A stretch of 35,081 bases of DNA. It comes from a virus. The stretch is taken from IMG/VR virus record IMGVR_UViG_3300037558_003022, positions 1 to 35,081 of that record, one strand, 5' to 3'. Below, in pieces: positions 5,183-35,081 of the stretch (position 1 is the first letter of the stretch; the number at the start of each line of letters is the position of its first letter). A program made the translations under genes and the position numbers. The notes below the pieces were generated by a model. That model did not search any database. It was not told the DNA's origin and saw only the letters and a list, made by a program, of their open reading frames with translations.

Positions 5183-5839
5183 TCATACGAACCGCTCCAC
5201 CAGCTCCAGCGAAGGCGCGCCGTATCGCGCGCGCCGGAGCAGCAGCTCGCCCTGGTCATCGTCGATCAGCCCCGCGATCATCGTGGGCTTCAGCTTCAGC
5301 GGTTCGTTGACATAGGCCGATCGGAAGCTGGGCGTGGTCTCGATCGTCGCCACGCTGCCTTCCCACCACACGCGCCGCGCGATGTAGGGATGCTCGCCCA
5401 GGCCGAAATACAGGCCCGCTTCCAGCAACTGCCCATACTGGCCGAAGTCGGCGGTGATCGTCCGCTGTCCCTGCGCGCCCGAAACGATCACGCCTTCCAG
5501 ATCGTCAGCCAGGTGCATGGCGCCGTCGCTGAAGGTCGCCCCGTCGCTCCACGGCACCAGATGCGCGCCGATCGCGCTGTCCTTGGCCCGGTGCCACAGG
5601 TCGAACAGCGGCACGCGCACCGTGTTGGCCCGCCCTTCGAACAGCGCCATCATCGCACGCCAGGCCTTCACCTCGTCGCCGAACAGATTGCCGAAGGTCA
5701 GCTTCAGGCCGAAGGGCGGCCGGATCGCCGGCGCGGATTGCGTGAAGCCGTTCAGGCTGCGCGACAGGCCCACGGTGGCGCGCGGCGGCAGCACGGCAAT
5801 ATCCTGCGGCACCAAATTGGCTGGCCAATTGAAGATCAT
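5183..5839 (-). CDS. Distal tail-like protein
   Basis: Protein of 218 residues that starts in an ATGA overlap with the tape-measure stop, so it is translated with it. The start (MIFNWPANLVP) and the WRAMMALFEG, RVPLFDLW and YFGLGEH segments recur in tail proteins encoded just after the tape measure in siphovirus-type transposable phages. By position it should form the distal tail ring that joins tube to tip. No catalytic motif or membrane segment is seen. The assignment rests on position more than on motifs. Confidence 0.55.
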   Translation of the reverse strand: MIFNWPANLVPQDIAVLPPRATVGLSRSLNGFTQSAPAIRPPFGLKLTFGNLFGDEVKAWRAMMALFEGRANTVRVPLFDLWHRAKDSAIGAHLVPWSDGATFSDGAMHLADDLEGVIVSGAQGQRTITADFGQYGQLLEAGLYFGLGEHPYIARRVWWEGSVATIETTPSFRSAYVNEPLKLKPTMIAGLIDDDQGELLLRRARYGAPSLELVERFV

Positions 5840-8199
5840 TGGCGCCGCTCCAGCGTATCCTGCACGCGCGATGCGGCGACCTGATCGTAACCAGCCACTG
5901 CAGCCTGCGCTTCGCCGCGGGCGATCTGGTTCATCTGGTCCAGCAGATCCTGCGTCACCACCGCACCGCGCAGATCATAATAGTTGGACGATCCGCCGGC
6001 AGCGTTTGCGCCGCGCATGCCGCCATTGTCGTTCGCACCGGCCGGATCGATGCGGCCCGGCGCCAACGGCAGGAACAGCCCCGGCGCAGTGCTGCGCTCG
6101 TTCACGGCGTAGATCTTGCCGGGCGACACTGGGCCGCCTTCGGCGCGCCCGCCGCCAAAGATGCCTAGGACGGAAGAAAACAGCCCGCCGACGAAATCTC
6201 CGGCCCCGGCGCTTTGCAGCGCTTCTGCAAACGGGGCGATCAGCACCTGCTGGATGAACATGTCGATGATGCCGCTAAGGAACGGATCATCCACGCCAAG
6301 TGCGTCGGTAATCCCATCGCGCATGCCGGCGCGCAGATGTTCCAGTTCGTCGATTACCAGCTGCTCACCCCACCGGCGCATTTCTTCGGGGCCCATGTTC
6401 AGATCGTCGGTATAGCGCTCCAGCGGGCCGCGCTGGTCCAGCCTCATCCCCTCGCGATCGGCAGCCTGCCGTTCCTCCAGCAGCGCACGCGCCTGCGCCG
6501 CATCGAGGATGCGCCCCTGGGCGATATCCTGCTCCAGCAGCTTGCGCTCGATCTCCTGCTGCAAATCAAGCGCGCGCTTCTCCAGCGCGAACCTTTCATC
6601 CAGTCCCAGCGCAACGCCCGCCTGCGCGTCCAGCGCATCGGCCTGCATCGCCAGCATTTCCAGCGCCATCGCATTCTCGCGCTCGGAAATGCGCTGCAGC
6701 TCTGCCTGGCCCAGCAGGCCGGGCTCTTGCACTACGATCGCGCCATCGGCGCCTACGGCCTCGCGCTTGCCGTACAGCAGGTCCAGATGCGCCAGCATCG
6801 CTTGCTTCTGCGCGGCGGTGAAATCCTTGTTGTTCTGGATCTGGCGCTCGCGTTCATCGCGCTCGGCGCCCAGCAGGTCCATTCGGATCGCAAGCTCATC
6901 ATCGATGCTGGTCGCCAGCTGCAGGCGAGCGCGCAGCTCTTCCTGCTGTTGCTGGGCCAGTTCCGATAGGTAGCGGTCCTCGATGCGGGCAATTTGGTCC
7001 GCTGCACTGCGGCCCGATCGGCGGGAACCGCCTCCGCGACCGCCACCATTTTCCGGCTGCAGGAATTGCTGAAGGGCGCCCTGATCGCCGCTGAGCGATT
7101 TGTCGGCATCAGTGTAATAGGCCTCATTCTCAGCGCCGATATTGAAATTCTGGATCGCCTGGAGCGCCTTGTTCAATGCCTCATCGTCGATCTGATTGGA
7201 GCGCCGAAGCGAGTTCAGGCCGCTGACAGCGCCGGCATATCGTACGTTTCGATCTTCGCGGGAAAGGCCGTCCAGACCGTCCATGTAGGAGGCAACAATA
7301 TCCGCAGTGGGATCCCCGGTTCGGACTAAACGGACTCCACCCATCAGGCCGGCCTGCACTTCCACCGAGCCCTTTCGGATATCGATCATTTCCTTGCGCG
7401 CAGCCGTTTGCATCTTTCGAGCATCGATCTGCCCCGCGATCGCCTGCGCTCGCGCGTTCGCCAGCAGTGCGACCGTGTTCTCCTTCAGCTTGCCGGTGGT
7501 CAGGTCGATCGCGTTGCCGACGATACTCTGCGCATCCGCAAAGGAATTGCTGGCGAGCTCGGCGGCCTCGAACGCCTCTTCAGCTTCCCATAGCGAACTG
7601 ACCAGCGGCACCAGCGCCGTCGTCGCCGCCATTAACCCCAGGCCCCAAGGCCCACCCAGAAAACCGATGAGGCCCTTTGCACCGCCCTGCATCAGGCCGA
7701 TCGCCTGGACCACCTGCATGCCCTGGCTGGCGAAGATCTGCATCGGGCGAGCGCCAAGGCTGTACATCGTCGCCACATCGCCCAGCTGCATCGCCAGCTG
7801 CTGCGATCCTGCGCGCTGGGCGTTCGTCAGCTCGATGTTCTGCTGCTGTGGAACTTGCGCCAACTCGTAAGCAGACTTGGTCTGTTTCAGCGTGGCGATC
7901 TGCTCGCGGTGCTCCGCTTGCACCAAACTCAGCGCGGTCTTCGTCTCGAGAAGCGATCGGTTGTATTCCTCCACCGAAATCTCGCCCGCCTTCAGAGCGG
8001 CCTTGGCCTGGTCGATTTCGCGCTTGGCTGCTGTCTGGCTGGCAGCGAGGCGCGCGATCGATGCGTCGGCATCCTTGTATGCCTGGACGTAGGCGCGGGC
8101 TTCGCCCTCGGATTGCTCGATCGCGCGGTCCAGGTCCGCCACGGCACGCTGCGCGCCTTCGCTATCGCCGGAAATCACCAGTGCGGTACGCAGCGTCAT
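5836..8199 (-). CDS. Tail length tape measure protein
   Basis: Protein of 787 residues. Residues 1-125 are long charged coiled coil, 170-215 contain a Gly/Ala-rich hydrophobic segment, 390-560 is again coiled coil rich in Gln, Glu and Arg, and the C-terminus ends in a Gly-rich stretch (GGPVSPG, then VNERSTAPG) typical of lambda-type tape measures. It would set tail length and pass DNA and itself through the envelope at injection. Using about 1.5 angstrom per residue, known for siphoviruses, the tail would be near 120 nm (inference). The ATG follows GAGAAGG. The gene comes directly after the chaperone GT frame, the classic lambda order. No lytic domain was seen in it. Confidence 0.85.
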   Translation of the reverse strand: MTLRTALVISGDSEGAQRAVADLDRAIEQSEGEARAYVQAYKDADASIARLAASQTAAKREIDQAKAALKAGEISVEEYNRSLLETKTALSLVQAEHREQIATLKQTKSAYELAQVPQQQNIELTNAQRAGSQQLAMQLGDVATMYSLGARPMQIFASQGMQVVQAIGLMQGGAKGLIGFLGGPWGLGLMAATTALVPLVSSLWEAEEAFEAAELASNSFADAQSIVGNAIDLTTGKLKENTVALLANARAQAIAGQIDARKMQTAARKEMIDIRKGSVEVQAGLMGGVRLVRTGDPTADIVASYMDGLDGLSREDRNVRYAGAVSGLNSLRRSNQIDDEALNKALQAIQNFNIGAENEAYYTDADKSLSGDQGALQQFLQPENGGGRGGGSRRSGRSAADQIARIEDRYLSELAQQQQEELRARLQLATSIDDELAIRMDLLGAERDERERQIQNNKDFTAAQKQAMLAHLDLLYGKREAVGADGAIVVQEPGLLGQAELQRISERENAMALEMLAMQADALDAQAGVALGLDERFALEKRALDLQQEIERKLLEQDIAQGRILDAAQARALLEERQAADREGMRLDQRGPLERYTDDLNMGPEEMRRWGEQLVIDELEHLRAGMRDGITDALGVDDPFLSGIIDMFIQQVLIAPFAEALQSAGAGDFVGGLFSSVLGIFGGGRAEGGPVSPGKIYAVNERSTAPGLFLPLAPGRIDPAGANDNGGMRGANAAGGSSNYYDLRGAVVTQDLLDQMNQIARGEAQAAVAGYDQVAASRVQDTLERRQ

Positions 8200-8203
8200 C
8201 GCT

Positions 8204-8892
8204 CTATCCTTCTCCGCCGTTCAGTTCGATCGTCGCCGCGCGCTCCATCACGCGCACGCCCTTCCACTGTTCAGCAGTCACGGTAATGCCCGCCATTTCG
8301 AGCCCGGCTTTCGCCGCGGTGTAATCGAGCCCGAGATAGCGATAGGCGCCCATGCCGATCGGCGCGGTTCGCCATTGGGTGGATATTGCAGTGAAGGCCC
8401 GAACGATCGGCCAGTTATCCGGCCATATATCCATCTCGCGTGCCGGCGTGACCGCTGCGCGCAGTCGCTCGATCACCTCGGGCGGAAAGCCGAATGCTTG
8501 CGCGTCTTGCGCTGCTTCGCCGGGACCGGCGGCGCCGCCCACAAGGGCGCGCGCCGCCACTTTCAGTTTCCCTCCTTCGCCCCGTTCAGAGCGGCGAAGT
8601 ATGTCTTCACAATCGCCTTGCGCGCCCAGGGCAGGCGGGTGACCTGGTCGCGAACATTGTCCGAATACTCGAGGGTCTTCCCCTCCACATCGCCGATATC
8701 GTGCAACTCCACGATGATCCGCTCGAGGAACGCCTTCACGCTGGTGGCATCCAACATGTCGAAGCTCTCGGCCTCGTCCATGCCGATCGCGCGGAAGGTC
8801 GCGGCGAAGCTCTGATCCTCGAACCCGCCATCCACCGGCACCTTGGCGGTTACTGTGTGGCGGAAGGTCGGCTCTGCGGCCAATTTGAACAT
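8204..8892 (-). CDS. Tail assembly chaperone long form GT, made by -1 frameshift
   Basis: Predicted fusion of 229 residues: 109 from the upstream frame, then 120 from the -1 frame that begins at Leu (CTG at 8566-8564) and ends at 8204. The downstream part lacks a start codon or ribosome site of its own. Its PEVIERL, DIWPDNWPIVRAF, STQWRTAP and YLGLDY segments match the DUF1799 type of chaperone extension. The slippery heptamer lies exactly where the frames join. As in lambda, the minor GT product should bind both tube protein and tape measure while the short form G coats the tape measure. The tape-measure gene starts 5 bases after this frame. Confidence 0.85.
8563..8892 (-). CDS. Tail assembly chaperone, short form (G-like)
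   Basis: Protein of 109 residues with a beta-rich first half and helical second half, as in phage tail assembly chaperones (lambda G, HK97 gp14). It ends with the TGA at 8565-8563 directly after the slippery site. The ATG follows GAGAAGGAT. It lies between the tube gene and the tape measure, which is the invariant position of these chaperones. It is the major product of the frame-shifted pair and is expected in assembly but not in the finished particle. Confidence 0.82.
   Translation of the reverse strand: MFKLAAEPTFRHTVTAKVPVDGGFEDQSFAATFRAIGMDEAESFDMLDATSVKAFLERIIVELHDIGDVEGKTLEYSDNVRDQVTRLPWARKAIVKTYFAALNGAKEGN
8566..8572 (-). other. Programmed -1 ribosomal frameshift site GGGAAAC
   Basis: On the coding strand the zero frame reads GAG GGA AAC TGA. 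The heptamer G GGA AAC has the X XXY YYZ form, and slipping back one base gives GGG AAA, then CTG AAA GTG in the open downstream frame. The zero-frame stop follows at once. The lambda G/GT site is GGGAAAG, one base different. No downstream pseudoknot was worked out. Confidence 0.88.
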
Positions 8893-8955
8893 GCGTGTAG
8901 ATCCTTCTCAGAAGGGCCTGAGGCGCGTCTATCGCTGCCCGGCCGCAGGTGGTGG

Positions 8956-9894
8956 TCAGGTCAGCGTGATGGTCCACTGATCGTCGCCGGCATTGGTGGG
9001 CAGCGGGGTCAGCGACAGCGGCCATTCGGCCACGTTCTGCGATTGCTCGATCCCGGTCAGGCGCCCCAGCGAACAGGTCGGCGCGCCGATCGTCACGATC
9101 TTGCCCGCCTGTGTGCCATGCACCAGCTGCACCGCCTGGCGCGTACGAGCCTCGGCGATCGCATAGGGATTGAACGTGCTCAGCGGCAGAGCTTCCACCC
9201 GGGCGGAAATGCTTTCGCTCCTGTCGACGATCAGCATTTCCTCGCGGCCGATCAGCAGGCGCTGCTGCACGTCGTTGCCCAGGTTGAAGCCGAACTGCGA
9301 CAGCACCATCGCCTGCCCGCCCACGCTGAAGGCCGGCGTGTTCTTGTTGCTGGCCACCTGCGGCACCTGGAATGCGGACAGGTCCGGCGTTACGCGCACC
9401 GCTTCGGCCGGGGTGTTGAACAGCCCCATCAGCGTGAAGCGCGCCACCGGGATCCCTTGCGCGTTCAGCGTGATGTTGGCGGTACCGCGAACGCCGGTCA
9501 GCTTGTGCTGGGTATTGCCCATCCAGAAATAGATGCTGGACGATTCATGCCCGTCGCTCACCGGGTTGTAGGTAACGCTGGTGGCCGCGACGATCGTTTC
9601 GGCCGCCGCGCAGCTGCGCATCAGGATGCCCCAGCCTGGTGCGGTGCCGGCTGCGCCGGAACCCTGCAGCTCGACCGATCCGGTCAACGTCACGTAAAGC
9701 CCGGCGGGGATCGTTTCCTGCGCGCCGAGGTGCGGGCGTTCGATATTGCGGGCGATGTCCTGACCTTCCATCGGGCGCAGCTCGACATCAGTCATCAGCA
9801 TGGCATCGGCAGCAACCGGTTCGGCATCGGTGCCATAGGTACCTTCGATCTTCGCCAGGATGATCTTGGTCTTCCACTTGATCGGATCGGCCAT
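8956..9894 (-). CDS. Major tail tube protein
   Basis: Protein of 312 residues, beta-rich, with no membrane segment. The N-terminus (KIILAKIEGTYGTDAEP) and the central Gly/Thr-rich beta repeats match siphovirus tail tube proteins in transposable phages. It should polymerise into the non-contractile tube. Expression is likely high: a strong GGAGGGG ribosome site precedes the ATG. It follows the tail terminator and a small gene, and precedes the chaperones. No sheath gene accompanies it, which supports a flexible, non-contractile tail. Confidence 0.78.
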   Translation of the reverse strand: MADPIKWKTKIILAKIEGTYGTDAEPVAADAMLMTDVELRPMEGQDIARNIERPHLGAQETIPAGLYVTLTGSVELQGSGAAGTAPGWGILMRSCAAAETIVAATSVTYNPVSDGHESSSIYFWMGNTQHKLTGVRGTANITLNAQGIPVARFTLMGLFNTPAEAVRVTPDLSAFQVPQVASNKNTPAFSVGGQAMVLSQFGFNLGNDVQQRLLIGREEMLIVDRSESISARVEALPLSTFNPYAIAEARTRQAVQLVHGTQAGKIVTIGAPTCSLGRLTGIEQSQNVAEWPLSLTPLPTNAGDDQWTITLT

Positions 9895-14938: not shown

Positions 14939-16228
14939 TCAGGACGTTGGCTTCGGGCCGCGCTCTTCCACTTCGATGAACAGGGTCTTCAGCGCTACGG
15001 TGCGGCGCAGTCGGCCGCGCGCCGCCCAGCGGGCCACGAAGGTATCGTTGCCGATCGTCAGCCGCTGCTCGAACAGATCTTCGCCCATGTCCGATTTCCC
15101 CGGCAAGCGCACCAGCTCGCCCGCACTGGCGATGCGCGGCAGCTGCGCGAAATCGGCGATCGTCACCGCGCGCTGGTTGCTGCGCCATTCCCGCAGCGGG
15201 TCGCCATGTTCGCTGCGAACATGGCCCACCGCCGATGGGTCCAGACTGAAATCGAAGCCGTCAACCGATCGGCCCAGTTCCGCCTCGATCGCGCGCGCCT
15301 GATCGCTGCGCAGCCGACCCAGCGTACGCGCGGGTGGCGCGGGCAGGTCGGGCTTGGGCTCGAGCACTTGGGCAGCATAGCGGCGCGTATTGTCTGCGGT
15401 GCTGGGCAGCGCGCGATAGCTGTCCGCCAGGGCGTCGGCCGTCTCGGCCGGCAGGCTGTCCATGAAGGCCTTGGCAATCTGATATTCCCAAGCGCCCACC
15501 TTGCGCGCCATTGCCTGCACCGTTTCGGAAACGCTGGCGCCGGGTGCATAATCCCAGCCCTTGCCGATACCAGGCGGCGCGCCGGTCGTTGGATCGCGCG
15601 TGTTCCATCCCTCGGGCAGGCTCTTGCCGGGCACGCCGCCCACGCGCTTGATCCCGCGTGTCGATCGCGCGCCCACCACATAGCAGGAACAGCCCCAGTC
15701 GCTCGGCGGATAATGGGTTTTCCAGAAGGGGTGATCGGGCGGCAGCGCAATGCCGTCCCAGCTCAGATGCTGTGGCCGCGGCTCCAGGCTGCCTCCATGG
15801 CGATAAACCCACCAGGGAAACTTGCCCGCCTGTAGCTGGGCATACCGGCCGGCGGCATAGCTGGTGTAGGAATTGGTGCGATAGATAACGCCCACGCGCC
15901 AGGCCTCGCCCCCAGTGCTGCCTTCACCGGCCCAACCGGTCCAGCCATGGCGCTTCACGATCCCACGGAAGTCACGCCGGAATTCCTCGATACCGCGCCC
16001 TTCCGCGATCGCCTTGTCCACCGCAGCCGCCAGGTCCGACAGCAGGTCCGCCTTGACCGCGCCGGCCACCATGAACGCATCGTCATGCGCAGCCCCGGTG
16101 ATATCGTCCCACCGGCGGGTCGGCACCTGGTTGCCCAGCTTGCGACGGAAGAATGCAACCTGTTCGGTGAACGGACGGCCCAGCGCACCCGAAACGCTGG
16201 ATGGGTGCTGCTCGCTGTCGCCGGCCAT
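14939..16228 (-). CDS. F: MuF minor head protein with C-terminal nuclease/toxin-like domain
   Basis: Protein of 429 residues from the ATG in a TGATG overlap with the portal stop; a GTG one codon earlier is also possible. Residues 1-110 are helical and bind the portal region in the family. Residues 119-209 are the MuF core: YAAGRYAQL, FPWWVYR, DGIALPPDHPFW, YPP and GCSCYVVGAR. The last 125 residues or so (from about 303) form a separate alpha/beta domain with His336, His341 and a late Thr-Val-Ala-Leu-Lys-Thr strand. It resembles the barnase/EndoU/colicin/RelE-like nuclease tails that phages fuse to MuF. The core would be injected or structural; the tail could act as an effector in the infected cell. 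The nuclease call is tentative. Confidence 0.85.
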   Translation of the reverse strand: MAGDSEQHPSSVSGALGRPFTEQVAFFRRKLGNQVPTRRWDDITGAAHDDAFMVAGAVKADLLSDLAAAVDKAIAEGRGIEEFRRDFRGIVKRHGWTGWAGEGSTGGEAWRVGVIYRTNSYTSYAAGRYAQLQAGKFPWWVYRHGGSLEPRPQHLSWDGIALPPDHPFWKTHYPPSDWGCSCYVVGARSTRGIKRVGGVPGKSLPEGWNTRDPTTGAPPGIGKGWDYAPGASVSETVQAMARKVGAWEYQIAKAFMDSLPAETADALADSYRALPSTADNTRRYAAQVLEPKPDLPAPPARTLGRLRSDQARAIEAELGRSVDGFDFSLDPSAVGHVRSEHGDPLREWRSNQRAVTIADFAQLPRIASAGELVRLPGKSDMGEDLFEQRLTIGNDTFVARWAARGRLRRTVALKTLFIEVEERGPKPTS

Positions 16229-17799
16229 CACGCGCTCTCGTTGGTGATGTCGCTCCGCCCGGCGGCGTGTGCGGCCGCAAGCCCGCCCGCGATCACGTCG
16301 GCCAGTCCGGCGCTTTCGATGTCACCGAACGCGCCTGACAGCATTTCGCGAAATTCGTGCAGGTCGCGTGCGCGCTCCAGCATGGTCTCGATCGTGCCCG
16401 CCATTTCCTGAATATGGGTATCGCCTTCTCCGGCCAGTTGCAGGGCGATTTGTTCGGCCGGGTGCGTCGGGTTCTGGCGCGAATGCAGCGTCAACGCGCT
16501 CCGATCGGCACCGGGCTGCGCGGGATCGAATGCGATCTGCGCCGGTGCAGGTGCTGTCAGGATCTCGTCCCGTTCGCCCGGATCGCTCAGGCCGAACTTG
16601 CCGCGGATCTCGGTGGCGCTGACGCGCAGGCCCAGCGGTACCATCTCCTTCAGGCTTTCGGACAGCAGCTTCAGGTCTTCCTGTTCCGGCCGCGTGATCG
16701 TAACCTTGGGATAGGCATTACTTGGCCCGAACTCGAGATCGCACCACGGCCGCACCAGATCGCGATTGAGTACGGCCGATGCCGCCTTGCCATCCGCTTT
16801 CTCGATGTCTTCGCGCACGTCGTTGTGAGCGTTCGCCTGCCCCGATCCCAAGCCTCCGGCCTGCGCATCGGTGGTGTTGGTCTGGCCCAGAACGGCTTTC
16901 GACACCTGCCGGTCCAGCCAGTCGGCCCGTTTTTCGTAGAGGGCGGAACCAGCGGTCACATTGCTGGCTTCGACGAAATCGATATCCATCCCTTCCGGAA
17001 TGATCGCCGCGCAATCGCCCGCGATGTTCGCAACCGCGCGGTACAGCGTGTCGCGATCGTCCTGGCTGGCCCCGGCATGGTATTTGCCCACGCGGATCGG
17101 CTGCCCGTAGGTCTGGGTGAAGATCGCCCAGTCGCGCTGGGTGTAGGCCTTGAACATCCAGCTCCAGGCCGCCAGACGCGCCAGGCCCGATCGGATCTGC
17201 AAACCGCTCTTCGCCTTGATCTGCATGCGGATGAACTTGAATGCCGGCAGCGGCGTATCCTTGCCCCTGCCATCCTCGCCGCCGCGTAGCAGCGGGGTAC
17301 GCCCGTCACGATCATATCTGAAGAACCGCGGATCGCACCATTCGAGGCGCGCGGGCAGGTACTGGCCTTCGCTCACATCCCAGATGATTTCGGTGAAGGA
17401 AATGCCCTTGCCGATCGCATCGAGGATATCGAACATTTCATCCGCCAGCTCGTCGCGCTTCAGCCATTCGCTGACCATGTCGGCGCGCCGCTGGTCTTCC
17501 GCGCTGTCCGATGCCGGTTCCACCGTGATGTCCAGCTGGCTGACGGCGCGCTTGCGCGTGCCCAGGACGCCCACGTAATGCAGGTCGCGTTCCTCGATCT
17601 GTTCGGCGAGTTCGAAATAGCTCAGCGGTTCGCCCTCGTCGGCTTCGCGCAGGATAGTGGCCAATCGGCGGGGGTTCAGTCCGTCGGCCGGATACCCCGC
17701 GATCGGTTGCCGCACTCCTGCCAGCGTGGGTCCCGCCACTTCGCGCGTCAGCACGGCCTTACGCAGCGGATTTCCCCATTGATCGACCAGCGCCGTCAT
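16228..17799 (-). CDS. DUF935 portal protein (Mu gp29-like)
   Basis: Protein of 523 residues, the usual length for the DUF935 portal family. Recognisable segments are EPLSYFELAEQIEERD, the GKGISFTEIIW strand, RWEE-like Trp-rich middle, and the long helix after KAVLGQTNTTDAQAGG. Twelve copies should form the ring through which DNA enters and leaves, contacting terminase and MuF. The last 90 residues are helical and acidic. It follows the large terminase after 127 bases and overlaps the MuF start by TGATG. The ribosome site (AAGGGAA) is weak. Confidence 0.92.
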   Translation of the reverse strand: MTALVDQWGNPLRKAVLTREVAGPTLAGVRQPIAGYPADGLNPRRLATILREADEGEPLSYFELAEQIEERDLHYVGVLGTRKRAVSQLDITVEPASDSAEDQRRADMVSEWLKRDELADEMFDILDAIGKGISFTEIIWDVSEGQYLPARLEWCDPRFFRYDRDGRTPLLRGGEDGRGKDTPLPAFKFIRMQIKAKSGLQIRSGLARLAAWSWMFKAYTQRDWAIFTQTYGQPIRVGKYHAGASQDDRDTLYRAVANIAGDCAAIIPEGMDIDFVEASNVTAGSALYEKRADWLDRQVSKAVLGQTNTTDAQAGGLGSGQANAHNDVREDIEKADGKAASAVLNRDLVRPWCDLEFGPSNAYPKVTITRPEQEDLKLLSESLKEMVPLGLRVSATEIRGKFGLSDPGERDEILTAPAPAQIAFDPAQPGADRSALTLHSRQNPTHPAEQIALQLAGEGDTHIQEMAGTIETMLERARDLHEFREMLSGAFGDIESAGLADVIAGGLAAAHAAGRSDITNESA

Positions 17800-20406: not shown

Positions 20407-20715
20407 TCACTCGGCCTCCGCCGGGCGGGTCACACCTTCGATCACGCCGCGTTCGTCCAAATGGTCGCGCCCGCAGCGCGCGATCCGGGCGATCGGCATC
20501 TCGCCGGCCATTTGGATCTCGATCGCACCCAGCGTTTCCAGCTTGCGCAGCTGGGTGAAAACCCAGTCGCGATCGCGCCTGATGCCGTACACATCCAGCG
20601 CGCGCTGCAGCGGCAGAATGGATAGCCGGCCGTCAGTCTGCTCCGCCAGTTCACGCAGGATCTGCAGCCGCGCATCGGCAGCAAGCCGCTCCTTCAGGTC
20701 CAGCCCGACATTCAT
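20407..20715 (-). CDS. Winged-helix small protein (VpaChn25_0724-like)
   Basis: Protein of 102 residues. ARLQILRELAEQ, then an alternating helical core, VFTQLRKLETLGAIEI as the likely recognition helix and wing, and a C-terminal GVIEGVTRPAE segment agree with the small phage protein family found in Mu-like phages between the lysis genes and the terminase. A DNA-binding fold like ArsR regulators is likely. Its target is unknown; it could modulate late transcription. It starts in an ATGA overlap. Confidence 0.7.
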   Translation of the reverse strand: MNVGLDLKERLAADARLQILRELAEQTDGRLSILPLQRALDVYGIRRDRDWVFTQLRKLETLGAIEIQMAGEMPIARIARCGRDHLDERGVIEGVTRPAEAE

Positions 20716-21338
20716 TTATCCAGTCCTTTCGGGATCAGCACATCGTAAAGCCGGTCGATCTGTCGGCCGATGATCTTGAGGTCGGAGACCGCAGCGCTCA
20801 CCTCGCGCGCCATGCCGTCCTGCTTCTCGCGAATGCCGGGCAGCTGCGTCACGATATTGTCGATCGCGCGGCGATTGCCTTCGACCTGCTCACGCAACGC
20901 CGGCAGCGTAGCCAGCTTCTCGGCCACATCGTCGCGATGCTCTTTCAGTTCTGCCGATAGCGATCGCAGGCTGCGTGACAGGGCTTCGATCGCCTGGTTG
21001 CTCAGCGCGCGGTCGCGGCGCATGGCCTGCAGTTCCTCGTCCACCTTCAGCAGCGCGCCGGCGAACTGCTCGGTCTTTTCCTCCTGGGCGCGCAGCTCGG
21101 CCTCGATCCGCCTTAGGTCTTCGGCTGATGCACTGTTCGCTTGCAACTGGCTGATCTGCTCGCCGAAGCTCGACAGCTTGCTCCCAAGCGCCTTCATCTC
21201 ATGGCCGAAATTGTTGACCTTGTGCTGTACCGCTCCGGTGCCCACCGGATTGGCCGCGCCGCCGCGCCAGATCACGTAGCCGATTCCGGCAAGGATGATG
21301 GCGATGATCGCCAGCTCCAGCAGTTTGCCGCTATCCAT
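20712..21338 (-). CDS. DUF2730-like membrane-anchored coiled-coil protein
   Basis: Protein of 208 residues. Residues 8-25 form one membrane helix; the remainder is a long charged coiled coil (about 40-190). Mu-like phages carry a DUF2730 protein of this form (Mu gp25 slot) next to the lysis genes, but its role is not known. The long helical region could span part of the periplasm or bind cell-envelope partners. The start overlaps the upstream stop by 8 bases; the stop overlaps the next start by ATGA. Confidence 0.7.
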   Translation of the reverse strand: MDSGKLLELAIIAIILAGIGYVIWRGGAANPVGTGAVQHKVNNFGHEMKALGSKLSSFGEQISQLQANSASAEDLRRIEAELRAQEEKTEQFAGALLKVDEELQAMRRDRALSNQAIEALSRSLRSLSAELKEHRDDVAEKLATLPALREQVEGNRRAIDNIVTQLPGIREKQDGMAREVSAAVSDLKIIGRQIDRLYDVLIPKGLDK

Positions 21339-26669: not shown

Positions 26670-28646
26670 TCATGTCTGGTTGTCGGTCACCAGGCGCAGC
26701 GCATTGAACACGCGCGTCTGGCGATCTTCCTGTTCTTCCTGATGCGGCTTCATCGCGGCGGCGGCCGCGCCCGCCGTTCCGCGATGGCGCGCAATGCGAA
26801 CCACTGACGGTTCCGGGGTGATCGGCTTCGGCGCATCGGGCTGAAGTGCGGCCACTTGATCAGCATCCAGCAGCTGCTGCGCCTCGATCGCGGCCTTTGT
26901 GGCCTTGCTGACATTGGCGGTCAGCTTGGCACTGCGCTTTGCGGCATCGGAATCGGAGAACCCGGTATCGGCGATAACCGGTGCAGTGCCCAAGAAGCGG
27001 CCTTCACGATCGTAAACGTGGATCTCGCTGTGCAGATTGTCCGGGTCGAACCTTACGGTGACCTTCTGCCCCGCAAGCGCGCCGATCTCGGTCGACCAGT
27101 AGCGATTGCCGAACAACGCGATCTCGCCCGTTGTTCGGTTCACCAGCTTCTGATCGGCAGCCAGCAAGGCCATGCGCAATTGCGCATCGTCGGCCTTCTT
27201 GATCGGCGCGATTGCATAGCTTTCGGCGAACGTCCGGTCGAAACTGCGCCCTTTGCACACTCCCCCGCGCCGGTTGGGCCGGGCGTTGTGATCGCGCACC
27301 CCGTTATCGACATGGGCGACAAACTCGTCCCATTCGATTGCACGGCTGCCGTAATTGTCGGGCTTCGCCACCGGGCTGTTGCCGGTATATGCACCTTCCA
27401 TGGCCGGATGCTTGGCGATCCGGTCGCACATGTCGCGAAATGCGCGTTCGATCGGCTTCGATTGGCCGCGATAAGGCAGGGCCCAGTGGATATCGATGCC
27501 CAGGCCGGTCAGCAGGCCCGTTGGATCTTCGTCGCGGATCTTGAATCGGAACCGGCTCTTCGCACCGCCGGTGATCCACTTGCTGGCAAAGCCGCGGCCG
27601 TTATCCAGTACGCAGGCCATGGGAATGCCGAACTCGCGGAACAGATCGGCGAACACCAGGCGCACCGCGGCGGCATTTTCGGTCAGCGACAGCCGCCAGG
27701 CCACCACCTTGCGGCTGTAGATATCCTGGATTGCCACCATGATCGGCCGGATCGGCTTGCCGGTTTCGGGCGATCGCACGAAAACGTCGAACTTGTGGCC
27801 GTCGATATTCACGCATTCCAGCGCATGCATGTCCGCAACCGAACGGCGCTGGGCAGGCTGTGCACGGCGCAGCGCTTCAGGCCCTTCGCGCTTCAGCTTC
27901 ACCACATCACGGGGCAGCTCGCGCTTCAGCCGCCTGCTGAATGTGCGCGCAGAAGGCATTGAGAGGCCTCTTTCCGCCGCGATTCTGGCCGTGCGATCGT
28001 AACAGCTGGTCAGCGTGGGCTGCGACGGGCGCAACCAGTCGCTCTTGAACACGGTCCACAGACCTTCATCGATCTCCGCTTCCGATCCGCCGCCTTTGCG
28101 GCGTGGGGCCAGCGCAGGCAGTCGGTTGGCTGCATCGATTCCGTCCACCGCGCGCAGCCAGTTCCACAGCGTCGCCTTGCCGACCGATCGTTCCGCTGCA
28201 ATTTCGGCTACTGCGGCAGTCTTCGTCGCCCCGGCAGCCACCAAAACTTCGATCTCGCACACGATATCCAGTCGGAACTGGGCGACTTCACGCACCTTGG
28301 CGGTTTGCTGTTCGAACCAGCGCCAGCCATGACGATCTTCGCTGCGTTTCTCGCTTATCTGCGGCTTCGCGATCAGGCCGCGGCGCGCTAGCTCCAACTG
28401 GACCGCAGGGGGAAGCAGCGACGCGTGAAATTCATGGCCACCGCCATGCCCGCGCCGCGGCCTCACCAGCAGGCCTCCATCGGCATCCGCTTTGCTGTAC
28501 CAGCGTTCCTCCTTCGCGCGCCGGGCGATAGATCGCTTGTCGCCTGGCAAACCGGGCAATGCCATCTCGGCAAGGTCCGCGGCAGAGAACCAGGGCGAAT
28601 CCTGCGGCGCATCCGGCGCTAATCGTCTTGCCTGTCCGGTCCCCAC
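26670..28646 (-). CDS. A: MuA-type DDE transposase
   Basis: Protein of 658 residues. The N-terminus (20-80) is a MuA end-binding type winged helix (WFSAADLAEMALPGLPGDKRSI). The catalytic triad is Asp282 (NIDGHKF), Asp348 (VLDNGRGF) and Glu400 (KPIERAF); spacing is close to MuA. A beta-barrel (about 515-560, with FGNRYWS) and a basic C-terminal helix region complete it. It cuts and joins phage ends for replicative transposition. The start is GTG directly after the upstream stop, with GAGAGG upstream. It is likely under early-promoter control by repressor and Ner. Confidence 0.97.
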   Translation of the reverse strand: MGTGQARRLAPDAPQDSPWFSAADLAEMALPGLPGDKRSIARRAKEERWYSKADADGGLLVRPRRGHGGGHEFHASLLPPAVQLELARRGLIAKPQISEKRSEDRHGWRWFEQQTAKVREVAQFRLDIVCEIEVLVAAGATKTAAVAEIAAERSVGKATLWNWLRAVDGIDAANRLPALAPRRKGGGSEAEIDEGLWTVFKSDWLRPSQPTLTSCYDRTARIAAERGLSMPSARTFSRRLKRELPRDVVKLKREGPEALRRAQPAQRRSVADMHALECVNIDGHKFDVFVRSPETGKPIRPIMVAIQDIYSRKVVAWRLSLTENAAAVRLVFADLFREFGIPMACVLDNGRGFASKWITGGAKSRFRFKIRDEDPTGLLTGLGIDIHWALPYRGQSKPIERAFRDMCDRIAKHPAMEGAYTGNSPVAKPDNYGSRAIEWDEFVAHVDNGVRDHNARPNRRGGVCKGRSFDRTFAESYAIAPIKKADDAQLRMALLAADQKLVNRTTGEIALFGNRYWSTEIGALAGQKVTVRFDPDNLHSEIHVYDREGRFLGTAPVIADTGFSDSDAAKRSAKLTANVSKATKAAIEAQQLLDADQVAALQPDAPKPITPEPSVVRIARHRGTAGAAAAAMKPHQEEQEDRQTRVFNALRLVTDNQT

Positions 28647-32057: not shown

Positions 32058-32458
32058 GCGTCACCTCCACGGTCGGGGCTTGACGCCCCGACCGCTTCGG
32101 TCATCCTGCCCTCGTCACAAGCCGCAGGAGATTTGCTATGAAGTCCTTGGCCGACCGCATCATGGCGCTCGAATACTACGTCTTGGCGCTCACTCTTGCC
32201 GCCGAGAATGCAACGCCAGGCACGGCCGATCGCATCGCGGCCCAAGCGCATCAATTTGCGGATAAGCTGAGCGACCCGTTTCCCGGTGCTGCGCGGGAAT
32301 TGCGGGGCCTTGCCGATTCCTACACTGGTGGGCTTGGACTGCCCGCCAATGAGTGAACCCGCCTGGGCTGCCTTCAGTGACATGCGATAGGCAACAACGC
32401 GCCGCGCCACTTCTTCGCCAGACATCGAAGTCAGGTCTATGCGCCGGTGGCTGCTCAT
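32054..32458 (-). CDS. Hypothetical early protein, mostly antisense to a rightward gene
   Basis: Frame of 134 codons with an ATGA overlap at both ends, which supports translation in the leftward operon. Only the first 35 residues or so (MSSHRRIDLTSMSGEEVARR) look like ordinary protein. The remainder overlaps 32138-32356 on the other strand, in the aligned codon phase that often keeps antisense frames open in GC-rich DNA. The gene may be real, or only its start may be a relic of a duplication. No family recognised. Confidence 0.35.
   Translation of the reverse strand: MSSHRRIDLTSMSGEEVARRVVAYRMSLKAAQAGSLIGGQSKPTSVGIGKAPQFPRSTGKRVAQLIRKLMRLGRDAIGRAWRCILGGKSERQDVVFERHDAVGQGLHSKSPAACDEGRMTEAVGASSPDRGGDA
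32070..32094. repeat. Perfect 10-base hairpin before the ParB-like gene
   Basis: CGGTCGGGGC (32070-32079) pairs exactly with GCCCCGACCG (32085-32094) around TTGAC. On the leftward transcript it ends just before TGGAGGTGA, the ribosome site of the ParB-like gene. On the rightward strand it would lie in the leader of the 32138-32356 gene. No T-run follows. Confidence 0.65.
32138..32356 (+). CDS. Rightward small protein, paralogue of 32542-32808
   Basis: Protein of 72 residues, helical, ending GLGLPANE. A strong ribosome site (GCAGGAGA, 6 bases before the ATG) supports it. The other rightward gene ends HLGLPAND, and both share DR-(I/M), an AAE-x2-(T/A)PG segment and this C-terminus. Base differences within LGLPAN are in third codon positions on this strand, which favours coding here over the opposite strand. 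No family recognised. Confidence 0.68.
   Translation: MKSLADRIMALEYYVLALTLAAENATPGTADRIAAQAHQFADKLSDPFPGAARELRGLADSYTGGLGLPANE
32446..32458. repeat. Direct repeat copy 2 at a start codon
   Basis: Exact copy of 32045-32057. Flanking GAGGT ribosome-site sequence is also shared with small differences (GAGGTagCGaa against GAGGTgaCGc). Confidence 0.6.
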
Positions 32459-33123
32459 TTCGCTACCTCACTTAGACAGTGACCGGCTTCTGCAGTGCGC
32501 TTAGCCTGCTCCCCATCGTCAACGGATACGGAGCGCGAACAGTGACCATGACCACCGAAGACCGCATGCGGATGTTCGAAAATCGCCTTGGCTATCTGGA
32601 AGCCAGACTGTCTTCCCTGCGCCACATCGCCATCGCCCATATTCGCGCCGCGGAAGAAAGTGCGCCAGGCGTCGCGAAGCGAACTTTCGCCACGGCAAAA
32701 CGCCAACATGCCTTCGAAGCGGCGGAAAATGCGCCGGGTGACGAAGGCATTCTCGATGCGATGATCGATGAGATCGATCAGCATCTCGGCCTGCCCGCGA
32801 ACGACTGATGCTCGCGCATCTGCCTCGATATCGCGCGCCTCGCGCTCTGCTTCGTCGATCAGCGCCTGCGCCTCGGCGCGGCGTTGCTCTCGCCGTTCGG
32901 CCAGCCCACCATCATCGATCAGCTCGACATGGCACAGCAGCTTGCCTTTCAGCGATAGGACGGCGGCGCGCTGGTGCGGCGCATGGGCCACGCACACCGC
33001 CACGATGCGGTTCGCATACCTGGTCGCCTCATCTGACCAGTATCGGAGGCCAAAGACCTCGATCTGTCCTTCTGCATCGATCCCGACCGGGGCCACGCGA
33101 ACGGCATCATGCGGATGCGTCAT
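32455..33123 (-). CDS. MuA C-terminal barrel-like early protein
   Basis: Frame of 222 codons with ATGA overlaps at both ends. Residues 18-70 (GQIEVFGLRYWSDEATRY and following) resemble the beta-barrel of this phage's own transposase (GEIALFGNRYWSTE). Residues 74-105 are a Glu/Ala/Arg-rich helix. After residue 105 it overlaps the rightward gene 32542-32808 and looks less like real protein. Function unknown; it may bind transposase or DNA. Confidence 0.6.
   Translation of the reverse strand: MTHPHDAVRVAPVGIDAEGQIEVFGLRYWSDEATRYANRIVAVCVAHAPHQRAAVLSLKGKLLCHVELIDDGGLAERREQRRAEAQALIDEAEREARDIEADARASVVRGQAEMLIDLIDHRIENAFVTRRIFRRFEGMLAFCRGESSLRDAWRTFFRGANMGDGDVAQGRQSGFQIAKAIFEHPHAVFGGHGHCSRSVSVDDGEQAKRTAEAGHCLSEVAK
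32542..32808 (+). CDS. Rightward small protein, paralogue of 32138-32356
   Basis: Protein of 88 residues from a GTG at 32542, or 86 residues from the ATG at 32548; GGAG lies 8 bases before the GTG. Helical with AAEESAPG and ends HLGLPAND. It is antisense to the MuA barrel-like gene. Similarity to the other rightward gene in the translated frame supports it. Function unknown. Confidence 0.6.
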   Translation: MTMTTEDRMRMFENRLGYLEARLSSLRHIAIAHIRAAEESAPGVAKRTFATAKRQHAFEAAENAPGDEGILDAMIDEIDQHLGLPAND

Positions 33124-33368
33124 GCCGCCACCGCCTTTCGCGCGCGCCGGCGCTCGTTCTCGGCAGCGATTTGGTCCAACGCAGCGTAGATCTTGGTAAT
33201 CGATGCCATGTTCGCACCGACCGGATCAGGATTTTTTTTGGACCGCTTCCACCGGTAAAATGTCGTGGGGTGAACGCCTGCACGCTGGCAGACGAAACGG
33301 ATCGAGACACGCTCTTCATGCGCCCGATTTTCGATGTCTTCGACGGTGGTTTGCTGGTCCATGGCCAT
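33120..33368 (-). CDS. Ner/Cro-like early regulator
   Basis: Protein of 82 residues, or 80 from a second ATG at 33362. A helix-turn-helix spans about 20-45 (SIRFVCQRAGVHPTTFYRWKR), with a basic C-terminal helix. It is the first leftward gene, opposite the repressor, the place of ner in Mu, where it lowers early and repressor transcription. No ribosome site precedes either ATG, which suggests a short-leader or leaderless message. Next gene starts in an ATGA overlap. Confidence 0.82.
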   Translation of the reverse strand: MAMDQQTTVEDIENRAHEERVSIRFVCQRAGVHPTTFYRWKRSKKNPDPVGANMASITKIYAALDQIAAENERRRARKAVAA

Positions 33369-33447
33369 AGCAATATAGCATTTATGCCATCATGCAATAG
33401 CAAATGTGCAAGGCGATTGCTAAGTTCGCCTTTGCTATCGCATTGAT
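33369..33447. promoter_or_regulatory. Divergent promoter/operator region of repressor and Ner-like gene
   Basis: Compared with its surroundings this 79-base gap is AT-rich. Four TAGCAAW half-sites occur: 33368-33374 and 33398-33404 forward, 33416-33422 and 33431-33437 reversed. The second and fourth sit in larger arms ATGCAATAGCAAA (33392-33404) and TTTGCTATCGCAT (33431-33443), inverted with one mismatch. TATATT at 33372-33377 on the minus strand could be a -10 box. Likely site for repressor and Ner. Confidence 0.72.
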
Positions 33448-34125
33448 ATGGAGGGCCTCGAACGAGACACAGAGCTGCTGCATCGGTTGGCCGAATTCAC
33501 CGGCTTGCGCCCGGCAGCCATCGCACGTGAAGCAGACGTGGCCGTTACGACGATCAACCGGCCATTCAATGGCTCGGCAACGACACGGCTCAGTCAACGC
33601 ACTCTAGAGAAGCTGAAAGAGGCTTTCCCAGGGTTCCCTGGCTGGGAAGATGTACCCATGGCGGCTTCGGATCGTCGGGTGCCTTCTATTCATGCTGACC
33701 GATCGGCTGCGCCAACCGATAGTTTAGCAATTCCGATGCTCGAACTAGGCTATGGGATGGGCGGCACCTTCCTCGACGGCGTCGATCCGGGCGAAGTGAT
33801 CGAACACTTCCCGCGCGCTTTTGTCCGGATGTTCACCAGCGCACCGGAACAGCTGCTGTGCTTCTCGCACGGCATTGGTGACAGCATGTATCCGACCATC
33901 GGTGATCGCGATGTCCTCCTGATCGATCGCAGCCGCGATACGATCAGCGTGAACGATCAGATCTGGGTGCTGTCGGTAGGCGGCATCGGCATGGTAAAGC
34001 GCGTGCGAATGGGTGGGGGGAAGGTCACGCTGCTGTCGGACAACGAGAATGTGCCCGATTACGATCCCGGCGATGATGAGTTGCAGATCATTGGCCGCGT
34101 GGTGGCCGTGGTGCGGCGAATATGA
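33448..34125 (+). CDS. S24-family phage repressor (CI-like)
   Basis: Protein of 225 residues. N-terminal helix-turn-helix about 20-45 (LRPAAIAREADVAVTTINR) and a LexA/CI peptidase domain with Ser146 (GDSMYPT) and Lys184 (GMVKRV). No typical Ala-Gly cleavage pair was seen; YGMGG (102-106) lies where it would be, so self-cleavage is unproven. It should hold the early promoter silent in the lysogen and may be induced by SOS signals. No ribosome site precedes the ATG, as in leaderless CI messages. Four more genes follow with 4-base overlaps. Confidence 0.9.
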   Translation: MEGLERDTELLHRLAEFTGLRPAAIAREADVAVTTINRPFNGSATTRLSQRTLEKLKEAFPGFPGWEDVPMAASDRRVPSIHADRSAAPTDSLAIPMLELGYGMGGTFLDGVDPGEVIEHFPRAFVRMFTSAPEQLLCFSHGIGDSMYPTIGDRDVLLIDRSRDTISVNDQIWVLSVGGIGMVKRVRMGGGKVTLLSDNENVPDYDPGDDELQIIGRVVAVVRRI

Positions 34126-34496
34126 CCGTGAACCGATCAGGAATGTGGCAGCGATTGGCTATTCCTGCTGAGAATCGCAGTAAGGATCTGGCTGATACAA
34201 CGACGACTGGTGTTTCGTCATATGCGCATTATATGAGGCAGCGCTATTCGCAGCTGATTGATGGCAATTTTGTCTGGTGGGTTTTTCGGTACGATTGTGA
34301 TGGATGCGAAGAAAGGTTCGCCGATTTGGACGGCGTTGCCTTGGAACCCTCCCACGCTTTCTGGCGATCTTACTTTCCGCCTCACGGCCCCGGTTGCGGC
34401 TGCTATGTCATTGGCGCTCGATCCGAGGCTGGCATAGATCGAGTAGGTGGAGGGCGCGAGAAGTCCTTACCTAGCTGGGTTCTCGATAGCTTATGA
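34122..34496 (+). CDS. Stand-alone MuF-core protein in the repressor operon
   Basis: Protein of 124 residues. Residues 35-118 align with residues 124-208 of the MuF head protein in this window; about 40 of 86 positions are the same by eye. Shared marks are RY-x-QL, F-x-WWV, DG-x-AL, H-x-FW, PP, GC-x-CYV-x-GARS and RVGG. The portal-binding N-terminus and the nuclease-like tail are absent. Cys59/Cys62 with Cys92/Cys94 could form a metal site. The ATG overlaps the repressor stop (ATGA). GC is about 45-50% against 65-70% for structural genes, so it was acquired separately. It could interfere with heads or ejected MuF of incoming phages, or be a gene relic; function unknown. Confidence 0.75.
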   Translation: MTVNRSGMWQRLAIPAENRSKDLADTTTTGVSSYAHYMRQRYSQLIDGNFVWWVFRYDCDGCEERFADLDGVALEPSHAFWRSYFPPHGPGCGCYVIGARSEAGIDRVGGGREKSLPSWVLDSL

Positions 34497-34783
34497 GATA
34501 TTTTGTCGCTCTATTGATCTTTGTTGGCGGCTGCTCCGACGAACGTTTTTCGTCCTGTCAAGAACTAGAGACCAAGTACCTCTCGCTTGTGTCGGAAGCC
34601 AATCAAACTGCTACCTTTGGTTCGGCGACTACGAATGAAGAGTTAAGGCGTGAGGCCGCTCGGCTCGACGATGATAAACTTAGGGAGCTCGAACTCTCTT
34701 TCTTGGATCTCTCCGACCAATGTGGCGATCGTGCGGCCATGGTCGCACATGGCAAGGCTATTCGTTTGGTGTTCGGAGAATGA
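34493..34783 (+). CDS. Small lipoprotein in the repressor operon
   Basis: Protein of 96 residues starting in an ATGA overlap. MRYFVALLIFVGGC is a short lipoprotein signal with lipobox VGGC and Cys14; Ser follows Cys, so by the usual rule it would go to the outer membrane. The mature 83 residues are helical and acidic (RREAARLDDDKLRELELSF). Low GC as in the preceding gene. Phage lipoproteins expressed in lysogens can block receptors or DNA entry; such a role is an inference. Confidence 0.72.
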   Translation: MRYFVALLIFVGGCSDERFSSCQELETKYLSLVSEANQTATFGSATTNEELRREAARLDDDKLRELELSFLDLSDQCGDRAAMVAHGKAIRLVFGE

Positions 34784-34902
34784 GCTTGCGCGAATGGTCG
34801 GATCGGAATGCCTTGCCGGCTGAAAGGCATGCCATTCAGCGCGAAGCAGTTCTGCTCGGCGCGATCATCGTCCTCGCCACCGTGGCGGGGCTGCTGGCGT
34901 GA
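34780..34902 (+). CDS. Small membrane protein in the repressor operon
   Basis: Protein of 40 residues with an ATGA overlap to the lipoprotein stop. The polar N-terminus (MSLREWSDRNALPAERH) is followed by one C-terminal membrane helix (about 22-40). GC returns to near 60%. No family recognised; it may partner with the lipoprotein across the envelope. Confidence 0.6.
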   Translation: MSLREWSDRNALPAERHAIQREAVLLGAIIVLATVAGLLA

Positions 34903-35081
34903 AAGGCTATTTGTACGTGGCCGATGAAAGCGGCGTCGAGATCGAAGGATCGCGCCGCTATCTCACACGCTGCAGATCTCGCGAAGAATACCAGGCGATC
35001 CTGCGGGATCTGGAAGCCGCGGCCGGCGATGGCTGTACGGTGCTCGACAGTGAACAGGACCGGCGCAGCTCCGCCAACTGA
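34899..35081 (+). CDS. Small soluble protein at the window's right edge
   Basis: Protein of 60 residues from a GTG in a GTGA overlap. It is complete, with its TGA as the last three bases. MKGYLYVADESGVEIEGS suggests beta-strands, then a helix (REEYQAILRDLEAAAG). No family recognised. Operon may continue beyond the window. Confidence 0.55.
   Translation: MKGYLYVADESGVEIEGSRRYLTRCRSREEYQAILRDLEAAAGDGCTVLDSEQDRRSSAN

Follow-up and report, generated by a model that had tools for sequence, protein, structure and literature searches.

Why a phage repressor should be followed by four small genes, one of which resembles part of a head protein, was the question raised by one end of a viral record from IMG/VR. 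This record, called the window in the following, was analysed over its full length of 35081 b. It belongs to a temperate, Mu-like phage of sphingomonad-type alphaproteobacteria, with its main genes on the minus strand.

Organisation of the repressor operon

Five genes with consecutive four-base overlaps were located on the plus strand at the repressor-bearing end (Table 1). From gene 1 to gene 5, the joins were ATGA, ATGA, ATGA and GTGA. Coordinates, joins and strand of the five-gene operon claimed in the original prediction were all reproduced from the sequence. The repressor matched Peptidase_S24 (E 1e-14) and the transcriptional repressor family phrog_4 (E 6e-25). The last base of gene 5 was the end of the record, from which the phage end itself is absent.

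On its other side, the repressor was separated by a divergent control region from a Ner-like regulator, which matched HTH_Tnp_1 (E 3e-6) and phrog_66, excisionase and transcriptional regulator (E 1.5e-4). Boxes of the type ATAGCAA or TTGCTA(T) were repeated in the control region at 33367, 33397, 33417 and 33432 and, judged by this pattern, are probably operators. The Ner-like gene was adjoined by a gene for a 222-aa protein with a weak match to the C-terminal (beta-barrel) part of Mu transposase (E 0.0016). The probable transposase of the window is encoded separately.

As at the left end of phage Mu, the repressor and the Ner-like gene diverged and the repressor was transcribed toward the phage end. 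In contrast to Mu, the repressor was of the S24 type and carried cargo; to our knowledge, the Mu c repressor has no co-transcribed cargo. Because of the gene overlaps with the repressor, we infer expression of genes 2-5 in the lysogen. Translated in series with the repressor, they would be made in the lysogen and would fall silent with the repressor on induction.

Table 1. Features of the window and of related phages
Feature	Sequence	Position	Strand	Length (aa)	Remarks
Gene 1, lysogeny repressor	Window	33448..34125	+	225	HTH and S24 peptidase-like, LexA/CI type
Gene 2, stand-alone MuF-core protein (sMuF)	Window	34122..34496	+	124	ATGA overlap with repressor
Gene 3, lipoprotein	Window	34493..34783	+	96	
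Gene 4, single-span membrane peptide	Window	34780..34902	+	40	Conserved tail gene of the slot
Gene 5, soluble protein	Window	34899..35081	+	60	Conserved tail gene of the slot
Divergent control region	Window	33369..33447			Between repressor and Ner-like gene
Ner-like HTH regulator	Window	33120..33368	-		First gene of the divergent early operon
Protein adjoining the Ner-like gene	Window	32455-33123	-	222	
Probable transposase	Window	26670-28646			
Full-length minor head protein MuF	Window	14939..16231	-		Head module; PBECR3-like C-terminal nuclease region; parental type of sMuF
Cargo behind repressor	L003			182	Lipoprotein
Cargo behind repressor	L004, L005			114 to 116	Lipoprotein
Cargo behind repressor	L006				DUF2846 protein
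Cargo directly behind related repressor	L007			105	Exported protein, weak relative of the window lipoprotein
Cargo behind repressor	L008	6453-6941			tRNA_anti-like lipoprotein
Cargo behind repressor	L092			85	Membrane-anchored protein
Cargo behind repressor	L106			146	Lipoprotein
Secreted SNase homologue behind repressor	L038	6649-7008			E 1e-7
Repressor-linked tRNA_anti-like lipoprotein	L047	6672-7127			
Repeated gene-5-start-like sequence	L092	3624-4183			
sMuF	L106				Phage of G288, also IMG/VR 2623620434; early operon ahead of transposase
sMuF	L116/L138				Beside tyrosine integrase, another prophage
Longer MuF core	L137	1288-1905	-	205	Behind MuB, Mu-like early region, G877
Longer MuF core	L162	4737-5381		214	Behind GemA, Mu-like early region

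Identity and origin of sMuF

The product of gene 2 had been described as a MuF-core protein, and this was borne out by BLASTP. Residues 31-117 of sMuF were 51% identical (89 aa, E 6e-26) to residues 118-205 of the phage's own MuF. Against the profile Phage_Mu_F (PF04233), sMuF scored 17.9 bits over positions 34-112 of 112, with a cut-off of 29.6. It corresponds to the middle domain of the minor head protein; both the N-terminal region and the C-terminal nuclease-like part are missing. It ends directly behind the MuF core, and the C-terminal toxin domain is absent. Its gene is located outside the head and packaging module, which holds the full-length copy and the portal gene (16228-17799). AF2 gave pLDDT values >90 for most of residues 41-120 and disorder for residues 1-30, and the core is predicted by this model to fold alone. 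The best structural matches of the predicted fold were phage head-morphogenesis domains, with modest E-values (best 8e-4). A chance similarity to MuF was ruled out by the BLASTP match together with the fold match. In PDB, no sequence match for MuF and no convincing fold match were found. The searches yielded neither a characterised relative of sMuF nor a solved MuF structure showing the portal-binding face.

The own full-length MuF matched Phage_Mu_F (E 1e-11) and, weakly, PBECR3 (E 0.012). PBECR3 was also detected in the MuF of the close relative L141 (E 3e-4) and in that of L157 (E 1e-11). The full MuFs of the window, L141, L157 and L158 ended in exchangeable C-terminal domains, PBECR3 and MuF_C, and resembled MuF effector fusions.

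MuF polymorphic toxins and 'short MuF' share with sMuF the MuF core domain and their occurrence in temperate phages (PMC5576092). They are encoded in the packaging module and are full-length MuF proteins, some of which carry a C-terminal domain, 'short MuF' being full-length MuF without the C-terminal extension (PMC5576092), whereas sMuF lies outside the head genes and has neither the N-terminal region nor any C-terminal domain. It might be argued that sMuF shields the lysogen from an injected MuF-PBECR, by capturing incoming nuclease-bearing MuF or by competing in packaging, in the manner of an immunity protein. This would agree with the PBECR3 or other effector-type C-terminal domains of the full MuFs found here and with the proposal that such MuF fusions are injected (PMC5512222; PMC5576092). 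However, the immunity proteins predicted for MuF toxins are encoded by small genes that follow the toxin gene immediately and are not MuF homologues (PMC5576092), and binding between MuF cores is without evidence. An immunity-like function of sMuF is therefore regarded as very improbable.

Base composition separated both cargo genes from their surroundings. GC3 was 0.52 in the sMuF and lipoprotein genes, compared with 0.67 in the repressor and 0.78 in the full MuF gene, in agreement with the low GC content of genes 2 and 3 that had been noted before. Gene 4 had a GC3 of 0.73, gene 5 of 0.69, and the other window genes measured were between 0.67 and 0.83. As GC3 was low in genes 2 and 3 alone, the foreign stretch is limited to both cargo genes. 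A recent duplication of the own MuF as the source of sMuF was ruled out by the sequence identity and the difference in GC3 between them.

The repressor-linked slot in related phages

Relatives of the repressor were present on the viral contigs L003-L006 (66-78% identical repressors) and, as further relatives, on the sphingomonad genome contigs L007 and L008. L092 was picked up via gene 5 and not via the repressor. Whole-phage comparison covered L003 (G1005), L004 (G1006) and L092 (G1009). Their full MuFs were 90-93% identical to that of the window, and the other virion genes were mostly 80-96% identical, with few variable ones. sMuF and the window lipoprotein were absent from all three. The layout of repressor and cargo was retained in close relatives with different cargo (Table 1).

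Genes 4 and 5 recurred with other cargo in L004 and L092. Homologues of gene 4 were found behind this cargo in L004 (44%) and L092 (65%). Gene 5 was 78% identical in L004 and 80% identical in L092, and distant relatives of it occurred in two sphingomonad genomes. The start of gene 5 was apparently present twice in L092, as a truncated copy behind gene 4 and as a full one about 380 b later. L004 extended about 590 b past gene 5 to the phage end. Genes 4 and 5 as host DNA beyond the phage end were ruled out, since both recur inside related phages and these further bases of phage end follow them in L004. A non-coding end sequence beyond the operon was common to L004, L006 and L007. It stopped at TGT(A/T)AGGTGAC in L004 (about 9966) and L006 (about 9526), after several shared blocks that are probably the transposase binding sites of this phage group. 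From the left ends shared by these three phages, it follows that the operon is part of the phage and is read in the direction of its end.

Thus, these phages have a modular left-end slot, in which cargo is swapped while the repressor and the tail genes stay. The whole operon as one conserved device was ruled out, as genes 4 and 5 also occur where genes 2 and 3 are missing. The original prediction of a repressor-linked device held in so far as a variable accessory cassette is tied to the repressor, but the four genes are not a single device: genes 4 and 5 are kept separately, and the variable insert consists of genes 2 and 3. Variable genes behind the repressor, whose search in other transposable phages it had suggested, were present. 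The cargo differed between relatives and was intact, where broken remnants only had been named as the contrary outcome.

An exported protein was part of the cargo in all nine phages including the window, and six of the nine had a lipobox protein, from several unrelated families; as the signal rule was simple and home-made and the nine phages were chosen from the repressor relatives, these counts are a description and not a formal test. None of the 38 other window genes passed the same lipobox rule. In remoter repressor relatives, the cargo was more mixed. In L023, L038 and L039, a small secreted homologue of staphylococcal nuclease (SNase) was coupled directly behind the repressor. It could be a repressor-linked periplasmic nuclease attacking incoming phage DNA. 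A tRNA_anti-like (OB-fold) domain (PF12869) was carried by lipoproteins linked to the repressor in different phages, namely L008, L047 and, by eye, L022.

The lipoprotein as candidate exclusion factor

The prediction of gene 3 as a lipoprotein was supported by the lipobox FVGGC with Cys14 and Ser at position +2, which is of the outer-membrane type by the E. coli rule. Its product combines signal peptide, lipobox and small size, as expected of a superinfection-exclusion lipoprotein. No match was obtained in Pfam, PHROG, NCBIfam or PADLOC; known exclusion families are very diverse. In a pairwise test, the exported protein of L007 showed weak similarity (27% identity, E 1e-4).

Expression of small phage lipoproteins of several types was shown by plating to exclude phages in a type-dependent manner (PMC11893012). 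Among them, Lpp021 and Lpp010 of the mEpimmI phages are likewise small lipobox proteins of unrelated types that are swapped among close temperate phages (PMC11893012). Their genes are part of the structural cluster, whereas that of the window is translated in series with the repressor, and they had no sequence family in common with the window cargo in the searches made. Since exported or lipobox cargo recurred behind the repressor and the rule was passed by none of the 38 other window genes, the lipoprotein is most likely a superinfection-exclusion factor. It would block the entry of related phages at the envelope, and for this function, predicted by analogy, we consider the chances to be evenly balanced.

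The cargo may instead serve host fitness, as lysogenic conversion unrelated to phages, for example by a helpful envelope lipoprotein. The slot cargo of relatives includes DUF2846, tRNA_anti-like and secreted SNase-like proteins, none of which is proven to be anti-phage. However, the rapid swapping of cargo among near-identical virions better fits a conflict between phages, and exclusion lipoproteins are an established prophage trait. A benefit for the host alone appears unlikely.

Stand-alone MuF cores in other phages

MuF cores were searched for in sphingomonad and other alphaproteobacterial genomes and in viral contigs. Two further stand-alone genes, each encoding about 100 aa and delimited as in sMuF, were identified in other sphingomonad phages, L106 and L116/L138. 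For the L106 gene, the start was set by us within a longer open frame. The L106 phage also has a full MuF in the head module and a repressor followed by a lipoprotein. Longer cores were encoded in L137 and L162; in G877, the 205-aa core is accompanied by a full MuF at a distance of about 8 kb. sMuF alone as the query found no match in viral_contigs. The profile search of the same set gave one more stand-alone copy, L109/L156, from the phage already represented by L106, as well as the 214-aa core of L162, whose row was left out of alignment A7. Most other profile matches were rejected as full head-module MuFs (L110, L111, L157-L161). Among 50,697 deposited phage records, each matched record had one place only, and the stand-alone form was unseen at that sensitivity. 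Plasmids gave one weak match, located in a phage minor head gene. Stand-alone MuF cores were rare in the genome samples as well.

The motifs GCE and D(L/F)D were common to the three sMuFs and stood in place of the E/H-P-R..HL.W of full MuFs. The sMuFs also had an additional Cys near the conserved CxC. In the tree, the window and L106 sMuFs were grouped with a support of 91/88. A clade of all three was weak (69/13), with the third copy joining on a long branch. At about 48% identity, the window and L106 genes differed at 35, 32 and 57 sites of the first, second and third codon position, respectively (124 in total). The excess at third positions is consistent with a constrained protein; part of it may predate the truncation.

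Debris, with a piece of a head gene carried passively between the repressor and a lipoprotein that alone matters, would account for the absence of sMuF from all close relatives, its score below the Pfam gathering threshold and the single copy known at this exact place. On the other hand, start and stop of sMuF are in perfect translational coupling, the same boundaries and motif occur in two other phages at unrelated positions, and the frame has been kept with the third-position excess, albeit partly perhaps from before the truncation. We consider passive carriage improbable. A similarly low probability is assigned to a function of sMuF in regulation or nucleic-acid binding, either in the early phase of the phage or in the control of lysogeny. 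For this function, the core of the parental MuF proteins, which accompany the injected DNA, would have been recruited for transposition or gene control, perhaps via a metal site (conserved C/H and CxC). The early positions of the cores in L106, L137 and L162 and the extra Cys of the sMuFs fit this function, but sMuF has no similarity to DNA-binding families, the integrase-side and repressor-side copies are in accessory positions, and the metal site is read from the alignment only.

Accessory genes beside a repressor and exclusion lipoproteins are both known. In the literature searched, which was covered in part, no description of a stand-alone MuF core in accessory or early positions was found; we regard this as a lead that falls short of proving novelty. 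The same partial search found no papers on sphingomonad transposable phages or on truncated-capsid dominant negatives.

Proposed function of the cargo genes

In the proposed mechanism, sMuF would be a cytoplasmic decoy of the minor head protein. When a related phage superinfects, sMuF would occupy the MuF site on its portal or prohead, and defective heads would be formed. Precedents for the principle are Tab, with which a transposable prophage blocks the assembly of virions (PMC10884400), and the Tai systems, in which prophage or satellite proteins stop virion assembly (PMC11364771). With Tab/anti-Tab of JBD26, which like the window phage is transposable, and with Tai, sMuF would share the use of a small prophage protein against the virion assembly of superinfecting phages. 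Tab and Tai differ in targeting tails, whereas sMuF is a head protein in miniature. Tab has its own promoter, is located between terminase genes and is paired with an anti-defence gene, anti-Tab (PMC10884400), whereas sMuF is encoded behind the repressor and has no known partner gene. A decoy derived from a virion protein would in principle correspond to the capsid-derived restriction factors of endogenous retroviruses.

The position of the L106 sMuF in a lytic early operon and of the L137 and L162 cores in early regions argues against the decoy, as a phage would harm itself there by blocking its own heads. Poisoning of the head assembly of related phages by sMuF, suggested by these analogies, is the preferred reading of its function, though rated as doubtful. 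Somewhat less probable still is the wider proposal that phages several times excised the MuF core into mini-genes on the repressor, early or integrase side, as a virion-derived restriction factor disabling the head assembly or DNA delivery of related phages.

Since MuF cores are also found by themselves away from repressor operons, sMuF and the lipoprotein need not work together. The superinfection-exclusion idea of the original prediction is thus retained for the exported and lipoprotein cargo that recurs at this place, but not for a necessary cooperation of both proteins. The two cargo genes probably help the infected cell to keep rival viruses out. The explanation as a whole, a repressor-coupled slot with an exclusion lipoprotein and an sMuF decoy, is tentative and falls just short of an even chance. 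A gene behind the repressor in these phages is probably an anti-phage or conversion gene expressed in the lysogen, so that exclusion factors could be collected by position. If sMuF were a decoy, it would be a defence built from the phage's own structural protein and would open the poorly understood role of MuF to experiment.

Three regions of the window (1-2025, 5836-9025 and 20712-21338, -) were far more variable among close relatives than their neighbours. Tail tip or fibre genes are probably encoded in the first two, which are thus candidates for receptor matching with the type of lipoprotein.
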